A stretch of 64,000 bases of DNA, taken from the NCBI RefSeq assembly GCF_031851795.1, contig NZ_CP134696.1:2279001-2343000 (forward strand), written 5' to 3'. The notes below the pieces were generated by a model. It was not told where the DNA came from and did not search any database. It was given only the letters and a program-made list of their open reading frames with translations. Source of the stretch: Pontibacter sp. G13. GTDB lineage: Bacteria > Bacteroidota > Bacteroidia > J057. The position numbers and the translations under genes were made by a program. Shown one piece after another: positions 30,078 to 62,429 of the stretch (its first letter is position 1; each line of letters starts with the position of its first letter).

Positions 30078-30749
30078 TCATTCATCGAGGGTATCCAGAT
30101 TATCGAGGTCCACATACCCCAATCTGATCGCTTCTCGGACGAGTGCTGCTGCATTCCGGACCCCAAACTTAGCCATGAGATTTTTGCGGTACTCCCTGAC
30201 TGTGGTTGCTTGAATATCCAGAATATTGGCGATGTCAGGGCTGGTATACCCTTCGACAATGTGCTTGAGTACTTTTCGTTCCTGGCCAGTGAGTGCGATC
30301 TCAATCCGCTCTGGCTTGTCGGCTTTCGACTTCTCCAGTTCGATTTTTTTCATGATGCTTTCTTCATATACGTGGGCGCCCCGATATACCTTTTTGATCG
30401 CCTGAATGATATCACGCCCTTTTGCTTCCTTCAATAGATATCCTCCCACATCTAAATTGAGAAATTCCATGGCCATCTGCGGTTCGTTGGAAACGGTCAA
30501 CATGAGAATTTCACAGTTAGGAAACGAACTGATGATTTTGGGAGCAGTCTCTAAGCCATTCATGACAGGCATGCTGATATCCAGCAAGACAATGTCTGCA
30601 TTTTGGCTACTGAGGAAAGCCAGTGCTTCAGCACCATTTCCTGCCATTCCGACTACTTCAATTTCATCGTCCATCTCTAGGGTCATCTGTAACCCATCAC
30701 GATAGATGGGATGATCATCTACGAGAAGTACTTGAATCTTATCAGGCAT
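30078..30749 (-). CDS. NarL/FixJ-family response regulator
   Basis: 223 residues. The receiver has LLVDDHPIYRDGL, Asp57 in IVLLDISMPVMNG and Lys in GYLLKEAKG. The LuxR-type helix-turn-helix reads LTGQERKVLKHIVEGYTSPDIANILDIQATTVREYRKNLMAKFGV. It lies downstream of the TPR histidine kinase at 31553 on the same strand, but with an 800-base gap, so pairing is likely yet not proven. The regulator resembles the one at 11664. It is upstream of the PUL on the same strand with a terminator between, so a role in PUL control is not indicated. Confidence 0.9.
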   Translation of the reverse strand: MPDKIQVLLVDDHPIYRDGLQMTLEMDDEIEVVGMAGNGAEALAFLSSQNADIVLLDISMPVMNGLETAPKIISSFPNCEILMLTVSNEPQMAMEFLNLDVGGYLLKEAKGRDIIQAIKKVYRGAHVYEESIMKKIELEKSKADKPERIEIALTGQERKVLKHIVEGYTSPDIANILDIQATTVREYRKNLMAKFGVRNAAALVREAIRLGYVDLDNLDTLDE

Positions 30750-31552: not shown

Positions 31553-33481
31553 TTAGTCCAGATCTGCGATCCAGCCAAGGTCATCAGTGGGTTTAGCTCC
31601 TTCGGGATGCCAGTTTCCTTGAACTCGGATACAGGTGCCTGCTCCCGGCGAGGTTTTCAGGTCATATTGAGCGCCCAGTCGTCTCACACGAGCATCCAAG
31701 GTCATGAAGCCTATTCCATCCCCTTCCGAGGCTTTTGCGGGATCAAAGCCTTTGCCATCATCGGTAATTTCGAGCGTTAGGATCTCGTCGGAGCGATCCA
31801 AAAAGATGATCACTTGGTTGGGATCGGCATGCTTGATCGCATTTTGGAGGGAAGATTCGATGATTCGATAGAGATCGATCTTGGCCCATTTGGCCATCGG
31901 ATCTGTCCAACTTCCGGTAACTCTCAACTCCAGCTTGAATGGCAATGCCTCGGCCTTTCTATCCAGGAGAGCTTGGGTAGCTTGCGGGAGGCTCAGGTAG
32001 TTCAGTGAGCTAGAAAAAAGGTCATGGGACATATTCCGCACACGCTGAGAAGTTTGCTGGGTATAGTCTTTCACCTTTCCCCAAAGCTCATCGGAAGCGG
32101 TCCCGGATTGTAAAATCTCGAGATACCTACTGATGCCCAATATGTCGGGCGCAACAGAATCATGTAGATCTTCGGCAATCTCTTTTCGCTCTTTTTCCTG
32201 CGCGACATGAAGCGCATGAAGCACTCGTTCTTTATTCAAGGTCTTCATTTCACTAACGGCCAATTTCATCTTTTGCCGATTCCAGCCTATCCAACCAGCT
32301 GAAAGTGCGAATATCAAGAGCATGATAGTGCCTCCAATCCCCTGCCAGAGTCTCAGCTCCTTTTGCTTTTGCTTAGCATGGACCCTGGCTATGTCGGTTT
32401 CATGTTTGGCGATAGCATCCTGCGAATTCATATACATGACAGAGTCTTTGGCATCCGAATGATAGTAGAGATACAATAGTGCGCTATCCATTTCTCCCAG
32501 TTCTTCCCACGCCGCTCCCGAAACCCAGTACACCGTCTCCAATATCCTGTAATCTTGAATGTTTGCACACACACTCGCTAGCTTATTCAAATCAGTGGAG
32601 ACAGACAGAGAGTCATAGTCCCCCATGAGATCTCGCTGAATCTTCGCATTGAGGTATGAAAGGATATTCAGCTCTAACTGACCGTAGTATTGAAAATCTC
32701 CTGCCTCCATGATTTGCTCTACCTCATCTAGAATGGGTTCATAATCCTCTATCGAGGAACTATCCAAAACATGGACCTGAAGTTGTAAGAGCAACATGTC
32801 CAACAACTGTAAGGAGTCTCCAAATGAGCGCACACATTCCTCCAAGGCCTTAGCTCTTCTCAACACCTCTTCATGGTTTTCGGTTACCACCAAGTATCCC
32901 ATCATCCCTACCCTTGCCCGAATGGACACCCAGGTGCATCCCTTGCTTCGGGAAATGACGGATTCAAAAGCTTCTTTGGCGAATTCCTCCTGGTAGTTGG
33001 CCATATACATATCCGCTATGACCAACTGCATAGAATCTACCAGTCCTTGGCAGCATTCGACCATAGAACGGTTGGCCTCCCAAAGCGATGCGTAGTGAAA
33101 AGCAGAATCCAACTCGTAAATATTCGAATAGAAGGAAATAGCCGAACCATACGCTCTTAGAGCCTCACGCTCATTGGAAGATTTCACTCGAATATGAAAA
33201 GCCCGATTCATGTAGGAATAGCCAATTTGTGGCTCATCGGTATTTGAATATAGGTAAGCCAGACACACTGAGGCGTATGCCACCGCAGTCGAATCTCCTT
33301 GAGAGACAGCCAGATTTAAGCCCTGGGTCCCAAAAGTCAGTCCAGCATCAATATCAAAACTCTCCTCCAATGCAGCCCAAGCTGAATCCACTAGAATCCT
33401 CGCGTCTTGGTCGGGAGACTGTCCCGCTATAGATCCCAATCCGAGGAACAGAAATCCTAAGCTGGCAAACAAGCTTTTCAT
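31553..33481 (-). CDS. TPR-domain sensor histidine kinase (HisKA_3 type)
   Basis: 642 residues. A signal peptide ends near GSIAGQ, then an extracytoplasmic helical region with TPR-like repeats (about 30-370), a membrane helix (IGGTIMLLIFALSAGWIGW, about 383-401) and a coiled coil. The dimerisation/phosphorylation box is EIAEDLHDSVAPDILG with His440, as in NarX/DesK-type kinases. The ATPase has SSLQNAIKHA, ITDDGKGFD and GDGIGFMTLDARVRRLG. The usual partner would be a NarL-type regulator such as the one at 30078. It is paralogous to the next kinase: both share WAKxDLYRIIE and a C-terminal tail ending KPTDDLGWIADLD or its variant. Confidence 0.92.
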   Translation of the reverse strand: MKSLFASLGFLFLGLGSIAGQSPDQDARILVDSAWAALEESFDIDAGLTFGTQGLNLAVSQGDSTAVAYASVCLAYLYSNTDEPQIGYSYMNRAFHIRVKSSNEREALRAYGSAISFYSNIYELDSAFHYASLWEANRSMVECCQGLVDSMQLVIADMYMANYQEEFAKEAFESVISRSKGCTWVSIRARVGMMGYLVVTENHEEVLRRAKALEECVRSFGDSLQLLDMLLLQLQVHVLDSSSIEDYEPILDEVEQIMEAGDFQYYGQLELNILSYLNAKIQRDLMGDYDSLSVSTDLNKLASVCANIQDYRILETVYWVSGAAWEELGEMDSALLYLYYHSDAKDSVMYMNSQDAIAKHETDIARVHAKQKQKELRLWQGIGGTIMLLIFALSAGWIGWNRQKMKLAVSEMKTLNKERVLHALHVAQEKERKEIAEDLHDSVAPDILGISRYLEILQSGTASDELWGKVKDYTQQTSQRVRNMSHDLFSSSLNYLSLPQATQALLDRKAEALPFKLELRVTGSWTDPMAKWAKIDLYRIIESSLQNAIKHADPNQVIIFLDRSDEILTLEITDDGKGFDPAKASEGDGIGFMTLDARVRRLGAQYDLKTSPGAGTCIRVQGNWHPEGAKPTDDLGWIADLD

Positions 33482-33715: not shown

Positions 33716-35674
33716 TTATAAATTCGCCAGTGAATCTAGATTGTCACTGGGTTTGCTCTCCGGGTCAGGCCATGGGCAGGTAATAGAAATGGAGGTTCCT
33801 TTTCCGATTTCCGGATCGATGGAATACGTACCACGAAGCCTATCTACTCTGTCAGCAAGGGTCAACATGCCGATACCGTCGCTTTCCTTTGCTTTTTCTT
33901 TATCAAATCCCCGCCCATTGTCTTCGATCAGGACTGTCAATTCATGATCCCGACAGACGAGCAAGATGGAGATCAAATCTGCCTGGGCATACTTTTGCGC
34001 ATTGTTGAGGGAAGTTTCTATGATTCGGTAGAGATCCACCTTGGCCCATTCAGCCATCGGTTTTTCCCAATTTCCCTCAATCACCAGCTCAGTTGGGGTT
34101 CCGGCACCTTCGTTTCGATCTGAGAGCTCCTTTACAGCCTCTGGGAAGCCGAGGGATTCAAAAGCCCCAGCATACAATTCATGGGAAAGCTCTCGAATAG
34201 TCTGAAGTGCGCCATCTAGCAGGTCGATAGATTTATCATAGCGTTCATCTTCGAGCTGATATTGGTCCCTGAAGAAATCGAAACGCTGGGAAAGAGAGCC
34301 CAAAGTCGCCGCAACACTGTCGTGCAACAAGCCCGAGATACGCTTCCTTTCCTGTTCTTGAGACTCTCTCAAGGCTTTCAGAACTCGAGAAGCTCCGAGC
34401 ATTTTGAGTTTATTGATCGATGCATTCACCTTGAGTCGCTCCTCTCTTCTTTTGATCTTCAGGCCCCACAAAATGCCACTAAATGCCAGAATCACGAATA
34501 TGATTCCAGCTATGGCGACTTGGTTTTGCCTGTCTTTGGCATCGTTTGCTTCTTTTAGCCTATCATTTTTCTTCCAAAGCCTTATGCTTTCATTCCTTTC
34601 GGAAAGCAATAATTTCCTATCATCCCATATGCTATCCTGAAGAATTAATGCAGTTTCAAAGAACACATTCGCTTTTTCAATATTTCCTAAATCTCTATGC
34701 AGGTTTCCGATATGTTCAAAAAGGCTTTTCTGATTTTCCAAGACTAACACATTGGTTGAAATCTCTGAGTATGAGATTCCATTTACTATGTCTAGGGCAG
34801 ACAATGAATCTTTTTTTATATAAAGAAAATACTTAGCAATACTAATATTTGCCTGATAATACGATTCATAAGTATCGTAATACCCATCATATTCTTGAAT
34901 AAGAAGTCTCATTTCCTCAAAAGCCTCCTCGGCAGCACTTGAATTTCCATAGCCTTCGAAATACATGGACAATTGTGTATTTAAGGCTTTTAGTAGGCTG
35001 CTTGAATCACCCAAAGCTCGTGCACAGGCAAGGTGACGGTCCAAGATTTTGTATTTCTTATCGTTTTCCTTGAGGAAGGAATCATTCTGAGAGTTTAGGA
35101 AGTTATCTATGATTCCAGATGCAGCCATGAATGTGGGATTTGCACATTCTGAATTACGATTCAAAACCCTTAAAAAGCACGCGTTCCCAATGTCTTCCTG
35201 ATAGTTGCGAGAATAATATAAGCCAATATTTACCTCCACCGTATCTTTTAGGCCCAATTCGGACTCTAATATTCCTAGCTCTTCCAGTTCTCCATAAAAA
35301 TACTCTACAGAATCCATTTCCCCTCTCAATTCGAGTACCTGAAAATAAAATAAGTACCCTAAAATTTGATCCCTTGGATCGGAGGAATTCTTCCTCAAAT
35401 GGAAAGCTTTATTGCCATGATAATTCATGGAATCATATTCCTCTTTTCCTAACCAAAGATAAAAGAGCGCAACGTGAAATTCTGAAACCTGAAACGCATC
35501 ACCGCATTCAACAACAATTGAGAGTCCGTTTTTGGCGTTCCGTAAGGCTTCATCAATTTCTCCTTTACCCCTTAATCGGTAGATTTCCTTTAGGTCTGCT
35601 GAAAAATCACATGCATAAGTATGCTGGAAACCCACCAACAGAATCGTCAATATTATCAGACAAAAATGCTTCAT
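33716..35674 (-). CDS. TPR-domain sensor histidine kinase (HisKA_3 type), A/T-rich sensor half
   Basis: 652 residues. The signal peptide ends around HTYACD. TPR-like helices fill about 25-370 (LRNAKNGLSIVVECGD; IGNLHRDLGNIEKANVFFETALILQ), followed by a membrane helix (VAIAGIIFVILAFSGILWGL), coiled coil and H-box RISGLLHDSVAATLGSL with His451. The ATPase has TSLNNAQKYA, IEDNGRGFD and SDGIGMLTLADRVDRLRG. The kinase half aligns well with the neighbour at 31553, whereas the sensor half does not. DNA encoding the sensor half is visibly A/T-rich (12 G/C of 60 at 34801-34860, against 27 of 60 at 33841-33900), suggesting a recent domain exchange. Cognate regulator unknown. Confidence 0.9.
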   Translation of the reverse strand: MKHFCLIILTILLVGFQHTYACDFSADLKEIYRLRGKGEIDEALRNAKNGLSIVVECGDAFQVSEFHVALFYLWLGKEEYDSMNYHGNKAFHLRKNSSDPRDQILGYLFYFQVLELRGEMDSVEYFYGELEELGILESELGLKDTVEVNIGLYYSRNYQEDIGNACFLRVLNRNSECANPTFMAASGIIDNFLNSQNDSFLKENDKKYKILDRHLACARALGDSSSLLKALNTQLSMYFEGYGNSSAAEEAFEEMRLLIQEYDGYYDTYESYYQANISIAKYFLYIKKDSLSALDIVNGISYSEISTNVLVLENQKSLFEHIGNLHRDLGNIEKANVFFETALILQDSIWDDRKLLLSERNESIRLWKKNDRLKEANDAKDRQNQVAIAGIIFVILAFSGILWGLKIKRREERLKVNASINKLKMLGASRVLKALRESQEQERKRISGLLHDSVAATLGSLSQRFDFFRDQYQLEDERYDKSIDLLDGALQTIRELSHELYAGAFESLGFPEAVKELSDRNEGAGTPTELVIEGNWEKPMAEWAKVDLYRIIETSLNNAQKYAQADLISILLVCRDHELTVLIEDNGRGFDKEKAKESDGIGMLTLADRVDRLRGTYSIDPEIGKGTSISITCPWPDPESKPSDNLDSLANL

Positions 35675-35752: not shown

Positions 35753-35788
35753 GGAAAAAAGCATACCCCACAAAATTACGGGGCATGC
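35753..35788 (-). terminator. Rho-independent terminator
   Basis: On the minus strand GCATGCCCC...GGGGTATGC forms a stem with one wobble pair, followed directly by TTTTTT. It ends the two-gene unit of the 888- and 231-residue proteins. Confidence 0.9.
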
Positions 35789-35797
35789 TAATATCTA

Positions 35798-36493
35798 TTA
35801 GATATCTCCCTTGATGAAAATATTTGCCTGAATGTTCAAAGACTTGATTTTCTTCTTTTTCGGATCAGTGTACTTTTGGAGGAAGATCTGATACTCCACG
35901 ATTTCATCTCCATCGTCGGTTTTTTCCAAAAGCCCCGTAAGATCAATCTTCTTCAATGTTGAACCCCGGTTCCCAGATACTTCCAACAAAACTTCCTGAT
36001 AGTATTCAGTCTCTCCGCCATTGATTCTACTTTTCACCGGCTGACTGATTTGTGAGATACTACCACTAGCCTCCAAATACAGATATACCTGTCCTCCAAA
36101 ATCCTTGGTTCCCGGCACATTCCCATATTCATACCAGAGGTGGATATATGGCAGATCATGTGGATCTGTACCCGTGGAAGCATTTGGATTTCGCTCAACC
36201 TGCATACTGTCAGATTCTGATCCACGATTGACGGTTACCGATACTCCCTTACCGATTTGGGTTTCAGTCTTATTGGGAAGGACAGTAATGGATTTGAGCT
36301 CCACATCGTCTGCGTCGTTTCCTGCTTGGTTGAGGTCAATCACCAAGGTAGAGTAGGACGATGCACTAGCTGCATCTGTGAAGGTTTCATGGGTAATGGA
36401 GTCTCCAGACCGGGCGGCGACGCCTACGTCAAGTTTATACGTATCCGAGTCCTTCAACAGAAGTACATAAGGTTTGCTTCTAACGAGTGACAT
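35798..36493 (-). CDS. Unrecognised protein encoded with tectonin-trypsin fusion
   Basis: 231 residues and no family that I recognise. There is no signal peptide or membrane segment. Predicted strands alternate with acidic, Gly/Ser-rich loops (VLLLKDSDTYKLDVGVAARSGD; YIHLWYEYGNVPGTKDFGGQVYLYLEASGS), suggesting two beta-sandwich-like halves. The last third is lysine-rich (YTDPKKKKIKSLNIQANIF). It starts 29 bases after the stop of the protease gene and shares its terminator, so the two are one operon. It may be a partner, substrate or inhibitor of the protease (inference). Confidence 0.75.
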   Translation of the reverse strand: MSLVRSKPYVLLLKDSDTYKLDVGVAARSGDSITHETFTDAASASSYSTLVIDLNQAGNDADDVELKSITVLPNKTETQIGKGVSVTVNRGSESDSMQVERNPNASTGTDPHDLPYIHLWYEYGNVPGTKDFGGQVYLYLEASGSISQISQPVKSRINGGETEYYQEVLLEVSGNRGSTLKKIDLTGLLEKTDDGDEIVEYQIFLQKYTDPKKKKIKSLNIQANIFIKGDI

Positions 36494-36522
36494 TTTGAAA
36501 TGTATTTAAGGTTTGAAAAGGA

Positions 36523-39189
36523 TTATTTGTTGTGATTGAGTACATTCAGTTTTTGGCACGACTCAGCGTTTTTATGAATGGGGCCTAGTCTATTTGGAGA
36601 TGAAAACCCGTCTTCCATCACCCAGTCACTTCTTCCATTCATGAGCATACCGATCCACTCGTGGGTTAATCTATCAAACACGGGCGATCCCGAATTCCCA
36701 CCAAATGCATCTACGGTTGCTTTGAAATAGCTTGAATTATTATCGGCTTGTCTTACCTTCCCTCCAGAAGACCAGATCTGTACGAGACCTATTGGGTGTC
36801 CAAGCATATACACTGACCGAAAATTTCGAAGTATGGGAGATAGATGGGGAGAGATAGGTACCGCTCCTTTAACGGGGCGGTCTAGCTGCAAGAGAGCCCA
36901 ATCATATTCTATGGATCTCTGGTATTTTTCCACCTGTACGGGACGATATATGTCTCGACTATTCACTACAGAATAAGGATTGTGAGGATGGTATTTTCTA
37001 AAGCACCGGATCAGTACGATTCCATTCAGATCAATTTGCCCATCTCGAAAGTCTGAAGAGCTGCTATTTTGGTTATATCCAATCATGTGAGCGCAGGTCA
37101 AGACTTGATCAGATTCGAGTAGAGTTGCAGTCCCTTTGGCACCGATCTTTTCGTCTATATAGGGCATGGAATCATCATCCCAGATAAAGCCCCATTTGTC
37201 CCAGAGTGCCTGCGTTTTTGATTTCAGCTTCAAGTGGGATACTCCCTGTTGAGACCTGGGCTCAGAACTATCAGAATCACAAGGCGGAAGATTTCCCTGA
37301 ATGGGGCTTACCGCCTCAGCGTCAAATACTGCAAGGACAGATTTTCCGTGTTTTAGCACTTCATCTTCTACCTTTAGATAGGGTATCCCACGCTCATCCA
37401 ATGCCCAAATGGTACCTTCTGAGGCCATCCAGATCTTGGACTCTTCATTCGGTGCAGAGCAAATGTCGGTTGATGGGGTCGAAGGAGCGTCTGTAGGTCG
37501 GACGGGAAATTGGAACAGCTTGCCGTCCGTATTCCGCCAAATACACAGATCCTCGAGGTACACCACGGAATCGATAGATCCCTCAGTAATTGTATCTGTT
37601 CTCACGAATAGCCAACCCTCGTGGGTCAATTGGTATATGAACAAATCCTGCTCCCGGTAGATACAAACCTGATTGTTGTTGCCGCCTTTCAATCCCTTGA
37701 CTCCTTGGATATTTAGCAGTTGATCAGTCCCCATCAGTGAGGGAAAACATAGGGAGGTTCGATATGAATTAGAATTCCCCTCATTGCGAACATGAACATA
37801 TCCAATATTACCCGATTGTGTCGCAACCCAAATAGCCGTTTCACTATTCCCCTTGATACCGGCAGCGATTTTATCGATGGGATCATCTAGCTGGTGGACT
37901 GACAAAAGCTCAGTCTCGATGTAAGTATCCGGACCATCCAACCTCAATTGGAGTAGAAAGAGGCAATGATCTTCGCTCAATCCAACTGCTAAGCTCAATA
38001 CTGAGCTACCCAATTCGGGGTGATCTCGATAGGTACAGGCCACCCAATCGGCAATGGTTGCGAGTTCCTTGAGTTTAAAATCCTCTTGCAAACTTCCTTC
38101 AACCCAATGGATGCCCCATTCTTGCCGTTCATTGTGGAAGACTGCACGACTGGCATACCAAAGTCCCTCATCATCGAGGGCCCATGCTAGATCTTTCGAA
38201 TATGGCTGTAAAGTCTTCAAAGGTTGGGGGAGTTCACTCTTCTGCCAACCTGATAGCTGGATAGATTTTCGGTGAATCATCCCAGCATCATCCAGGAGAT
38301 AGGGAATCCCATCCACCCCAACTTCCAATTCGCGGTAAGGTATCTTTCCCTCTTTCGGTCGCTCCAACGGCTTTAGATCACTTAGTGTGAACGTATTGAC
38401 GGATCCATCAAACAGTATAGAGCCACTCCAAATCTCACATTCGGTCATGAACCATACAATCAGTCGAGCCTCCGTACCGTCCGGATCAAAGTAGTAGTCA
38501 GGATTGACGATTTTCAGGTCGTGCAATTTGATCTGATCGAATTCGGAGCTGGCAATCTCTACCTCTATCCAGCCTTTTATCTTGAAGATCTGATTATGGG
38601 TTATCAGTAATTTGCGCTCTTCCTTATCCCATCCCAATACAACCTCATAGCCCCCCGCTAGATCTAGCTTGAAACTGTCCAGAATCGTGAATCGCGGACT
38701 AGAATTATTGCCAGAACCATCCTTTTTGCTCCACACTTGGCGAAATCCCCCAATCCATTTCACGGCCTCTCCCTGAGGATTGAGTCCCCATACAGAGGTA
38801 TCACTCCCAACCACCAGTTTGTGGGGTACTTTATCTTGATGACTTTTGTTGATGCTATCGAATTTAAGCTTGATCTCAAACTCCGAACCATTCCATCTGA
38901 CCAGATCCTTTTCCGGAATCGTGATTCCCCATACAGCTCCATCCCTACCTACCGACAACGTTTCGAACTTTTTACCAGGAACGATTTCAAATTCAGAGCC
39001 ATTCCAATAAAAAGGATGTCCCTCTCTATTGAGCGCCCAGACATGATCTGGATTTCCCACGCTGATAGATTTGAATTGGTCGATCGAAGCTTCCGGCATG
39101 GGAAAAATACCCGTTTTGGCCGGTTGATCGTAGGTGCATTTCAAATCCGAATCACCGTATATGACTTTTGTTGCATTGGTAGTGATCAT
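36523..39189 (-). CDS. Tectonin-like propeller fused to trypsin-like serine protease
   Basis: 888 residues. Residues about 35-640 contain repeated beta-propeller strands of tectonin type: a VWALNREGHPFYWNGSEFE pattern recurs as VWGITIPEKDLVRWNGSEFE, VWGLNPQGEAVKW, AWALDDEGLWY, IWALDERGIPYLK. Residues about 660-880 are a chymotrypsin/V8-like protease with His701 in LTCAHMIGY, Asp763 in YDWALLQLD and Ser833 in GGNSGSPVFD, a complete triad. No signal peptide or membrane helix is visible, unlike most bacterial members of this protease family. The propeller could bind a glycan or protein cue and gate the protease. It is co-transcribed with an unrecognised 231-residue protein. Function is inferred; no close relative is known to me. 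Confidence 0.8.
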   Translation of the reverse strand: MITTNATKVIYGDSDLKCTYDQPAKTGIFPMPEASIDQFKSISVGNPDHVWALNREGHPFYWNGSEFEIVPGKKFETLSVGRDGAVWGITIPEKDLVRWNGSEFEIKLKFDSINKSHQDKVPHKLVVGSDTSVWGLNPQGEAVKWIGGFRQVWSKKDGSGNNSSPRFTILDSFKLDLAGGYEVVLGWDKEERKLLITHNQIFKIKGWIEVEIASSEFDQIKLHDLKIVNPDYYFDPDGTEARLIVWFMTECEIWSGSILFDGSVNTFTLSDLKPLERPKEGKIPYRELEVGVDGIPYLLDDAGMIHRKSIQLSGWQKSELPQPLKTLQPYSKDLAWALDDEGLWYASRAVFHNERQEWGIHWVEGSLQEDFKLKELATIADWVACTYRDHPELGSSVLSLAVGLSEDHCLFLLQLRLDGPDTYIETELLSVHQLDDPIDKIAAGIKGNSETAIWVATQSGNIGYVHVRNEGNSNSYRTSLCFPSLMGTDQLLNIQGVKGLKGGNNNQVCIYREQDLFIYQLTHEGWLFVRTDTITEGSIDSVVYLEDLCIWRNTDGKLFQFPVRPTDAPSTPSTDICSAPNEESKIWMASEGTIWALDERGIPYLKVEDEVLKHGKSVLAVFDAEAVSPIQGNLPPCDSDSSEPRSQQGVSHLKLKSKTQALWDKWGFIWDDDSMPYIDEKIGAKGTATLLESDQVLTCAHMIGYNQNSSSSDFRDGQIDLNGIVLIRCFRKYHPHNPYSVVNSRDIYRPVQVEKYQRSIEYDWALLQLDRPVKGAVPISPHLSPILRNFRSVYMLGHPIGLVQIWSSGGKVRQADNNSSYFKATVDAFGGNSGSPVFDRLTHEWIGMLMNGRSDWVMEDGFSSPNRLGPIHKNAESCQKLNVLNHNK

Positions 39190-61533: not shown

Positions 61534-61766
61534 GAAAAAAATGCCTCATGCTGCAAAATTCCGACGCGGTGGCGCCTGTGGGTGGGGGAATTTATGCGGG
61601 ATCCCACGCTTTGTGCATGCTAGGGCTCGTCTTTTTTCAGGAGAGGAATGAGGGCCATGTTACTCCCTTGGCATCCATCCTGCCCTGTGGGCGCCCTACC
61701 GCGGAATTGAGCAGGAGCCGGATTACCCACGGGCCAGTGCACTTGCCGAAATCCGCCTCAGGATTT

Positions 61767-61786
61767 CCGGGCAATGAATTGCCCGG
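61767..61786. repeat. Hairpin core copy 2
   Basis: Same 20-base hairpin as copy 1. It is preceded by the conserved CTTGCCGAAATCCGCCTCAG segment and followed by module A, which itself has an inverted repeat (CCCGCAAAATTCC at 61847 with GGAATTTATGCGGG at 61884). Confidence 0.85.
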
Positions 61787-62069
61787 TTGTGGGATGTCGC
61801 GCCTACAGTGCTTGCATGGATGCCAAGCGCTAAAATATTGCCTCATCCCGCAAAATTCCGACGCGGTGGCGCCTGTGGGTGGGGGAATTTATGCGGGATC
61901 CCACGCCTCGTGCATGCTAGGGCTTGTCTTTTGTCGGGAGAGGAATGAGGGCCATGTTTCTCCCTCTCCCTTGGCATCCATCCTGCCCTGCGGGCGCCCA
62001 ATCCCGGAATTTAGCAGGAGCCGGATTACCCACGGGCCAGTGCACTTGCCGAAATCCGCCTCAGGATTT

Positions 62070-62089
62070 CCGGGCAATGAATTGCCCGG
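62070..62089. repeat. Hairpin core copy 3
   Basis: Same 20-base hairpin, 303 bases after copy 2, followed by another module A and by the insert CAGAGTTTGTTTGGGCCGA near 62363. Confidence 0.85.
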
Positions 62090-62409
62090 TTGTGGGATGT
62101 CGCGCCTACAGTGCTTGCATGGATGCCAAGCGCTAAAATATTGCCTCATCCCGCAAAATTCCGACGCGGTGGCGCCTGTGGGTGGGGGAATTTATGCGGG
62201 ATCTCACGCCTCGTGCATGCTGGGGCTCGTCTTTTATCGGGAGAGGAATGAGGGCCATATTACTCCCTTGGCATCCGTCCTGCCCTGTGGGCGCCCTACC
62301 GCGGAATTGAGCAGGAGGCGGATTACCCACGGGCCAGTGCACTTGCCGAAATCCGCCTCAGCAGAGTTTGTTTGGGCCGATGCACTTGCCGAAATCCGCC
62401 TCAGGATTT

Positions 62410-62429
62410 CCGGGCAATGAATTGCCCGG
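62410..62429. repeat. Hairpin core copy 4
   Basis: Same 20-base hairpin, followed by module B copy 2 and then by a unique segment (about 62587-62712) not seen elsewhere in the window. Confidence 0.85.

Follow-up and report, generated by a model that had tools for sequence, protein, structure and literature searches.

What is the function of a trypsin-like protease that carries a tectonin-type propeller and no signal peptide, where does it act, and what part is played by the small gene behind it? The locus lies in a window of 64,000 nucleotides (the whole stretch of DNA that was analysed) from a Bacteroidota-type host genome of 7.67 Mb that is 98% complete. Five Trypsin_2 proteins are encoded elsewhere in this genome and no second tectonin protein was found in its 7.67 Mb. 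The reading that we tentatively favour, at a probability of about 0.45, is a propeller-gated, self-activating two-gene protease module that is not exported by Sec and whose partner acts on the protease domain. Coordinates are collected in Table 1.

Table 1. Positions of the protease gene, its partner and neighbouring features in the window.
Feature	Position	Strand	Basis or remark
Tectonin-propeller/trypsin-like protease gene, 888 aa	36523..39189	-	No signal peptide; ORF list, Pfam
Motif KVIYGDSD, residues 8-15 (family N-terminal motif (K/R)-VIYGxDDR)	39145..39168	-	Predicted cut between Lys8 and Val9
Inserted propeller-type region, residues ~37-612	37354..39081	-	Pfam Tectonin 39-141, internal repeats, low-confidence model
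Protease barrel, residues ~660-888	36526..37212	-	Pfam, alignment, model
His701	37087-37089	-	Catalytic triad, alignment
Asp763	36901-36903	-	Catalytic triad, alignment
S1 Asp827	36709-36711	-	Alignment
Ser833	36691-36693	-	Catalytic triad, alignment
Partner gene, 231 aa, pI 4.9, no cysteine, family unassigned	35798..36493	-	29 bp 3′ of protease gene
Intrinsic terminator	35760..35789	-	13-bp stem and T run; closes the two-gene unit
HisKA_3 histidine kinase, first gene 3′ of the pair	33716..35674	-	Pfam; kinase likewise after the Flexithrix pair (putative association)
Another histidine kinase of this kind	31553..33481	-	Pfam
LuxR-type response regulator	30078..30749	-	Pfam; counterpart beyond the kinase in Flexithrix

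Protease barrel, N-terminal motif and propeller region

A sequence-only reading had described this protein as a propeller fused to a protease with an intact catalytic triad, and both points held. The Tectonin profile (PF19193; residues 39-141, E 1.2e-9, 38.4 bits against a cut-off of 30) and Trypsin_2 (PF13365; residues 686-848, E 1.4e-14, above cut-off) are matched within one 888-aa chain, whilst His701, Asp763, Ser833 and the oxyanion-hole GNSGS are invariant in a 28-row alignment of relatives. Asp827, six residues before Ser833, is nearly invariant in the same alignment and occupies the position of trypsin Asp189 (chymotrypsin position 189, six before Ser195), from which cleavage after Lys or Arg is predicted; an active enzyme of this specificity is the natural prediction. 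The AlphaFold model reaches a pLDDT of 80-95 in most blocks from residue 690 onward and the modelled barrel superposes on V8, Esp, Spl and trypsins at a Z of ~15, so there is no sign of the collapsed active site that the same reading had said would count against it. With its triad, GNSG, Trypsin_2 match and fold Z of 15, the protein is an S1 (chymotrypsin-fold) serine protease. By sequence profile the nearest solved proteins are a bacterial glutamyl endopeptidase and trypsins; by sequence and by fold the closest structures include glutamyl endopeptidase, V8, Esp and Spl, with trypsins level with these.

The relatives share a further landmark that had not been noted before. A VIYG-x-D-D/N-R motif stands 202-244 residues ahead of the catalytic Ser (~205 in most) in 71 of 91 relative rows; in 53 of these 71, K or R precedes it. 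It follows the signal peptide directly in secreted relatives, and in signal-less ones it comes after ~55 residues with an ELLxELRxRE-like start. The (K/R)-VIYG motif resembles the mature N-terminus of V8-type (S1B) proteases, where that terminus contributes to the S1 site and is present only once the propeptide has been removed (PMC5508998). In the window protease an exact KVIYG stands at residues 8-12, for which a rough estimate of chance occurrence within the first 20 residues is ~1e-5; after VIYG the chain diverges (DSDLKC against the family DDRxD). Membership of the V8-like S1B group thus fits the KVIYGDSD at residues 8-15, but the DDR part has diverged, and V8 and trypsin structures score equally by Z against the modelled barrel.

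The window motif is 825 residues ahead of Ser833, which places the propeller inside the protease, with the activation end before it and the barrel behind it. The simplest reading of the chain is that the protease would start at residue 9 and that the propeller-type region was inserted before the barrel, a topology that the literature cited here does not describe. Therefore, whilst the propeller does precede the barrel, as first proposed, it is nested after the protease's own N-terminal motif. Nor does all of the claim of a large propeller stand: three blades are clear, at 42, 78 and 125 (internal repeats), but those near residues 285, 330, 450 and 580 are degenerate and the Tectonin match covers only profile positions 2-89 of 216. 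With a mean pLDDT mostly below 50 over residues 1-650, the AlphaFold model is too uncertain for a blade count, and a comparison with the closed, six-bladed, carbohydrate- or LPS-binding Tectonin propeller goes through a model with pLDDT <50 over most of that region. No full-length relative of the protease was found in 13 family genomes, 395 phylum genomes, viral contigs or phages, so that maintenance of the window architecture by selection is conjectural. The propeller might serve as nothing more than an inert spacer.

The partner gene and its conservation

The terminator sets in 8 bp past the partner's stop codon (35789-35760); because so strong a terminator lies directly 3′ of the partner, protease and partner form a single transcription unit. 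The gene upstream of the protease is divergently oriented and ~700 bp distant. That the partner is co-transcribed and of no recognised family, as had been suggested, is borne out by this shared terminator and by searches of Pfam (E up to 1), PADLOC and PHROGs, none of which gave a family match. An NCBIfam hit to hept-6-ulosonate synthase (E 0.002) was discarded at 17 bits against a cut-off of 241. Relatives of the partner were likewise absent from genome contigs, viral contigs, phages, plasmids and the PDB, and a single-sequence search of 295 class genomes found none besides a weak match to release factor RF3. This match is an ungapped likeness of partner residues 85-154 (36032-36241) over 70 residues to RF3 switch I-II, at 15.6 bits; it has P ~2e-7 for the single pair and beats 1000 shuffles and all unrelated ORFs tested. 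We reject kinship with RF3 as chance, as the comparison was post hoc with an E of 1e-3 to 1e-2 per genome, the Flexithrix partners described below do not have this stretch and the poor model is all-beta.

The partner is very acidic, hydrophilic, cysteine-free and lysine-tailed, a composition that may fit an inhibitor, a substrate or a chaperone alike. Its AlphaFold model (mean pLDDT 40) was left out of the fold search. A gasdermin pore former was also considered; the partner has no PADLOC or Pfam match, its related partners are 138 aa long and the low pLDDT of its model applies here too.

Conservation of the pair was found, but thinly, in one lineage only. In Flexithrix dorotheae and in a related genome, G921 (protease 79% identical), a 138-codon gene lies 30-40 bp 3′ of the protease gene (L058 and L145, respectively). 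The first ~100 residues of its product resemble the window partner (MN-KPHVFLAKLSNTRFKL against KPYVLLLKDSDT-YKL). For the first 110 residues of the window partner, the observed score was reached by 2 of 3000 shuffles for Flexithrix and 18 of 3000 for G921. Moreover, when the 59 relative loci that have an immediately downstream ORF are compared, these two partners rank first, G921 being tied with one other locus. Pairwise BLASTP gave E ~0.01 at 25-30% identity over the first half only, and hhalign with a two-row input gave a non-significant probability of 1.7%. Homology of the window and Flexithrix-lineage partners is thus likely but not proven. In the tree, the Flexithrix and G921 proteases have the shortest paths to the window protease, a placement that depends on a long branch (4.5) and an unsupported fork. 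The N-terminal half of these two proteases is a different domain and not tectonin; in Flexithrix its only match is a weak one to Nal1_C (E 0.046). Since the related partners track the protease domain and not the sensor, the partner probably acts on the protease itself, which argues for an inhibitor, a substrate or a chaperone of that enzyme.

In both genomes the pair is followed by a TPR/HisKA_3 kinase and then by a LuxR-type regulator, which in G921 is truncated by the contig end; the window has genes of the same types after its pair. As the window genome has ~15 such kinases, chance adjacency of one to the pair is well below 1%. The adjacent kinase is the third of 18 matches to the Flexithrix kinase in the window genome, not its one-to-one best match, so the link is positional only; control of the unit by kinase and regulator may be considered on this footing.

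Relatives, defence context and export

Of at least 560 relatives of the protease in a scan of a genome collection with a small alignment, the best 80 come from Bdellovibrionota, Elusimicrobiota, Pseudomonadota, Bacillota, Actinomycetota, Cyanobacteriota, archaea and further groups. In signal-less members the protease is joined to four ricin-type lectin repeats (L080, 7527-9425), FG-GAP repeats (L074, 930-2354) or a PPC module (L049, 7950-9233), and one has an apparent B-lectin-like tail (L044, 7755-9158); the hosts of these four are Actinomycetota and archaea. Two proteins from Parachlamydiaceae, 1467 and 1589 aa long (L052, 173-4573; L105, 7686-12452), combine a KAIY/KALYG start with a trypsin domain; in the former, NACHT and HEAT repeats come after this domain in a STAND-like architecture. 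On plasmids of Rhizobium and Bradyrhizobium (L039 and L028) relatives lie beside a caspase-fold C25 peptidase and a ferritin-like protein, and the Rhizobium relative also adjoins a System 3-type trypsin-NucA fusion. The same plasmid cluster holds an S8 peptidase, AbiE genes and a DyP peroxidase and is a recurrent multi-protease cluster. Two other Bacteroidota genomes encode secreted relatives (L036, 9660-13654; L147, 7756-12050), each adjoining a similar secreted protein of 930-1006 aa, which makes another conserved pair, and two signal-less Bacillota relatives (L068, 8956-9822; L056, 10012-10860) lie near astacin/matrixin-like metalloprotease genes. The (K/R)-VIYG proteases are thus a large family of many phyla, in which some branches are secreted, others lack a signal peptide and the binding modules can be exchanged.

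The suggestion of a defence-island context was not borne out. No credible PADLOC match was found among the seven other window proteins that were scanned, and those of the protease itself (RT-Protease_XI, 1e-6; LmuA, 2.5e-3) reflect only the generic protease fold. Trypco, EAD, STAND and MoxR/vWA signatures are absent from the unit and from the scanned window proteins, and no Trypco1/2 or MoxR-vWA gene stands beside the protease gene among the neighbours that were read or scanned. An Endonuclease_NS (NucA) domain is likewise missing from the unit and was found only beside the Rhizobium relative. The neighbours of the pair are sugar-metabolism and two-component genes. Elsewhere in the window, an open frame (61548-62420, + strand) consists of near-identical repeats (QNSDAVAPVGGGIYAGSHA...); it reflects an array of repeated DNA and is not an evident gene. 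By analogy, a conflict role of the window protease is possible, because its relatives in other phyla sit in the conflict-type architectures described above (trypsin-NACHT-HEAT, trypsin-NucA neighbour).

Lastly, the reported lack of an export signal was confirmed. Neither protease nor partner has a hydrophobic stretch in its first 60 residues, and the frame is open for just 21 codons upstream of the protease ATG, which encode no signal peptide. The chain ends in the protease without a T9SS C-terminal domain (Pfam). Neither an eCIS core protein nor a contractile sheath was found in the genome at E up to 0.01, and export by an eCIS was rejected on that ground. The lack of all of these favours the cytosol as the probable place of action of the protease. 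In a separate Bacteroidota genome (G031) a 557-aa tectonin protein is encoded close to genes for an eCIS_core protein and an AAA ATPase (L035, 4451-9236), suggesting that tectonins may be cargo or parts of such particles.

Proposed working, rival explanations and known systems

For the propeller-gated module we envisage the following working. The enzyme would be made as a nearly inactive zymogen whose chain begins MITTNATK/VIYGD (the slash marks the cut), and would trim its own N-terminus by means of its Lys/Arg specificity, with Asp827 forming the floor of the S1 pocket; a cut after Lys8 is a testable prediction of this zymogen model. The new N-terminus would have to pass the inserted propeller to reach the barrel, and a ligand on the propeller may favour or block activation. 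The partner would act on the protease domain, with which related partners stay despite the exchanged sensor; its likeliest role is that of an inhibitor or a dedicated substrate. That ligand-gated zymogen and dedicated substrate or inhibitor together make up a compact sensing cascade with an exchangeable sensor is a further step that we consider unlikely.

Alternatively, the protease might be a cytosolic conflict effector, its propeller sensing a product of an invader and its active site cleaving the partner as a pro-effector of arrest or death. The Parachlamydiaceae proteins and the Rhizobium neighbour, which recalls System 3 (PMC7159879), are in keeping with this, as are the swapped sensor with retained protease and partner in the Flexithrix lineage and the established activation of a neighbouring pro-effector by proteolysis in nuclease-protease pairs (PMC12799240). 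However, the missing conflict signatures, the metabolic and two-component neighbours and an acidic, hydrophilic partner devoid of any effector motif make this possible but doubtful. Should the protease instead leave the cell in some unusual way, by lysis or unrecognised secretion, the propeller would act as a targeting lectin, the enzyme would cut the surface proteins of other cells and the partner would be an immunity inhibitor or carrier. Signal peptides are missing from many well-known bacterial lectins, signal-less lectins that exit cells are known, and the ricin-type and FG-GAP fusions and the tectonin protein of the G031 eCIS locus point the same way. Against this, there are tectonin proteins of the same family with signal peptides (G085) and the host offers neither eCIS core, contractile sheath nor T9SS domain; we think this route improbable. 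The self-activating module remains our preferred reading. Sensor-switched intracellular trypsin-like proteases of bacteria feature increasingly in work on immunity and cell death.

Of the known systems, the V8/glutamyl endopeptidases (S1B; BIGEP 1p3c, V8 1qy6, Esp 4jcn) share the barrel, the triad and GNSGS, as well as an N-terminal motif of V-I type that directly follows their maturation cut. In contrast to them, the window protease has an Asp at the trypsin-189 position that suggests Lys/Arg rather than Glu specificity, lacks a signal peptide and has ~600 residues inserted behind the motif. With the Tectonin family (PF19193; TECPR1/MBHA-type) it shares the three clear blades and a match above cut-off, but its propeller region is larger, degenerate in the middle and nested in a protease. 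The trypsin-based conflict systems VMAP/Trypco and System 3 (PMC7159879) also have a signal-less trypsin-like protease, an exchangeable domain and a small co-encoded protein, whereas Trypco, EAD, NucA, STAND and MoxR are all absent from the window unit. The HamM/HamA and Avs1 nuclease-protease pairs (PMC12799240) likewise join a protease to a co-transcribed partner; theirs is an MBL-fold nuclease, usually encoded upstream, whereas the window partner lies downstream and matches no family. The Streptomyces umbrella toxin pair UmbA-UmbB (PMC11062931) combines a lectin-type module and a trypsin fold with a small partner, the N-terminus of which enters the cleft of the trypsin domain. A similar adaptor pair, with the protease domain mainly as a docking module whose cleft holds the partner N-terminus, would agree with the N-terminal half being the conserved part of the window partner and with Umb1 at rank 31 of the Foldseek matches. 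We hold it to be very unlikely: UmbA is secreted and its trypsin domain catalytically inactive, whereas the window protease is signal-less and, with triad, GNSGS and S1 Asp intact, predicted to be active.
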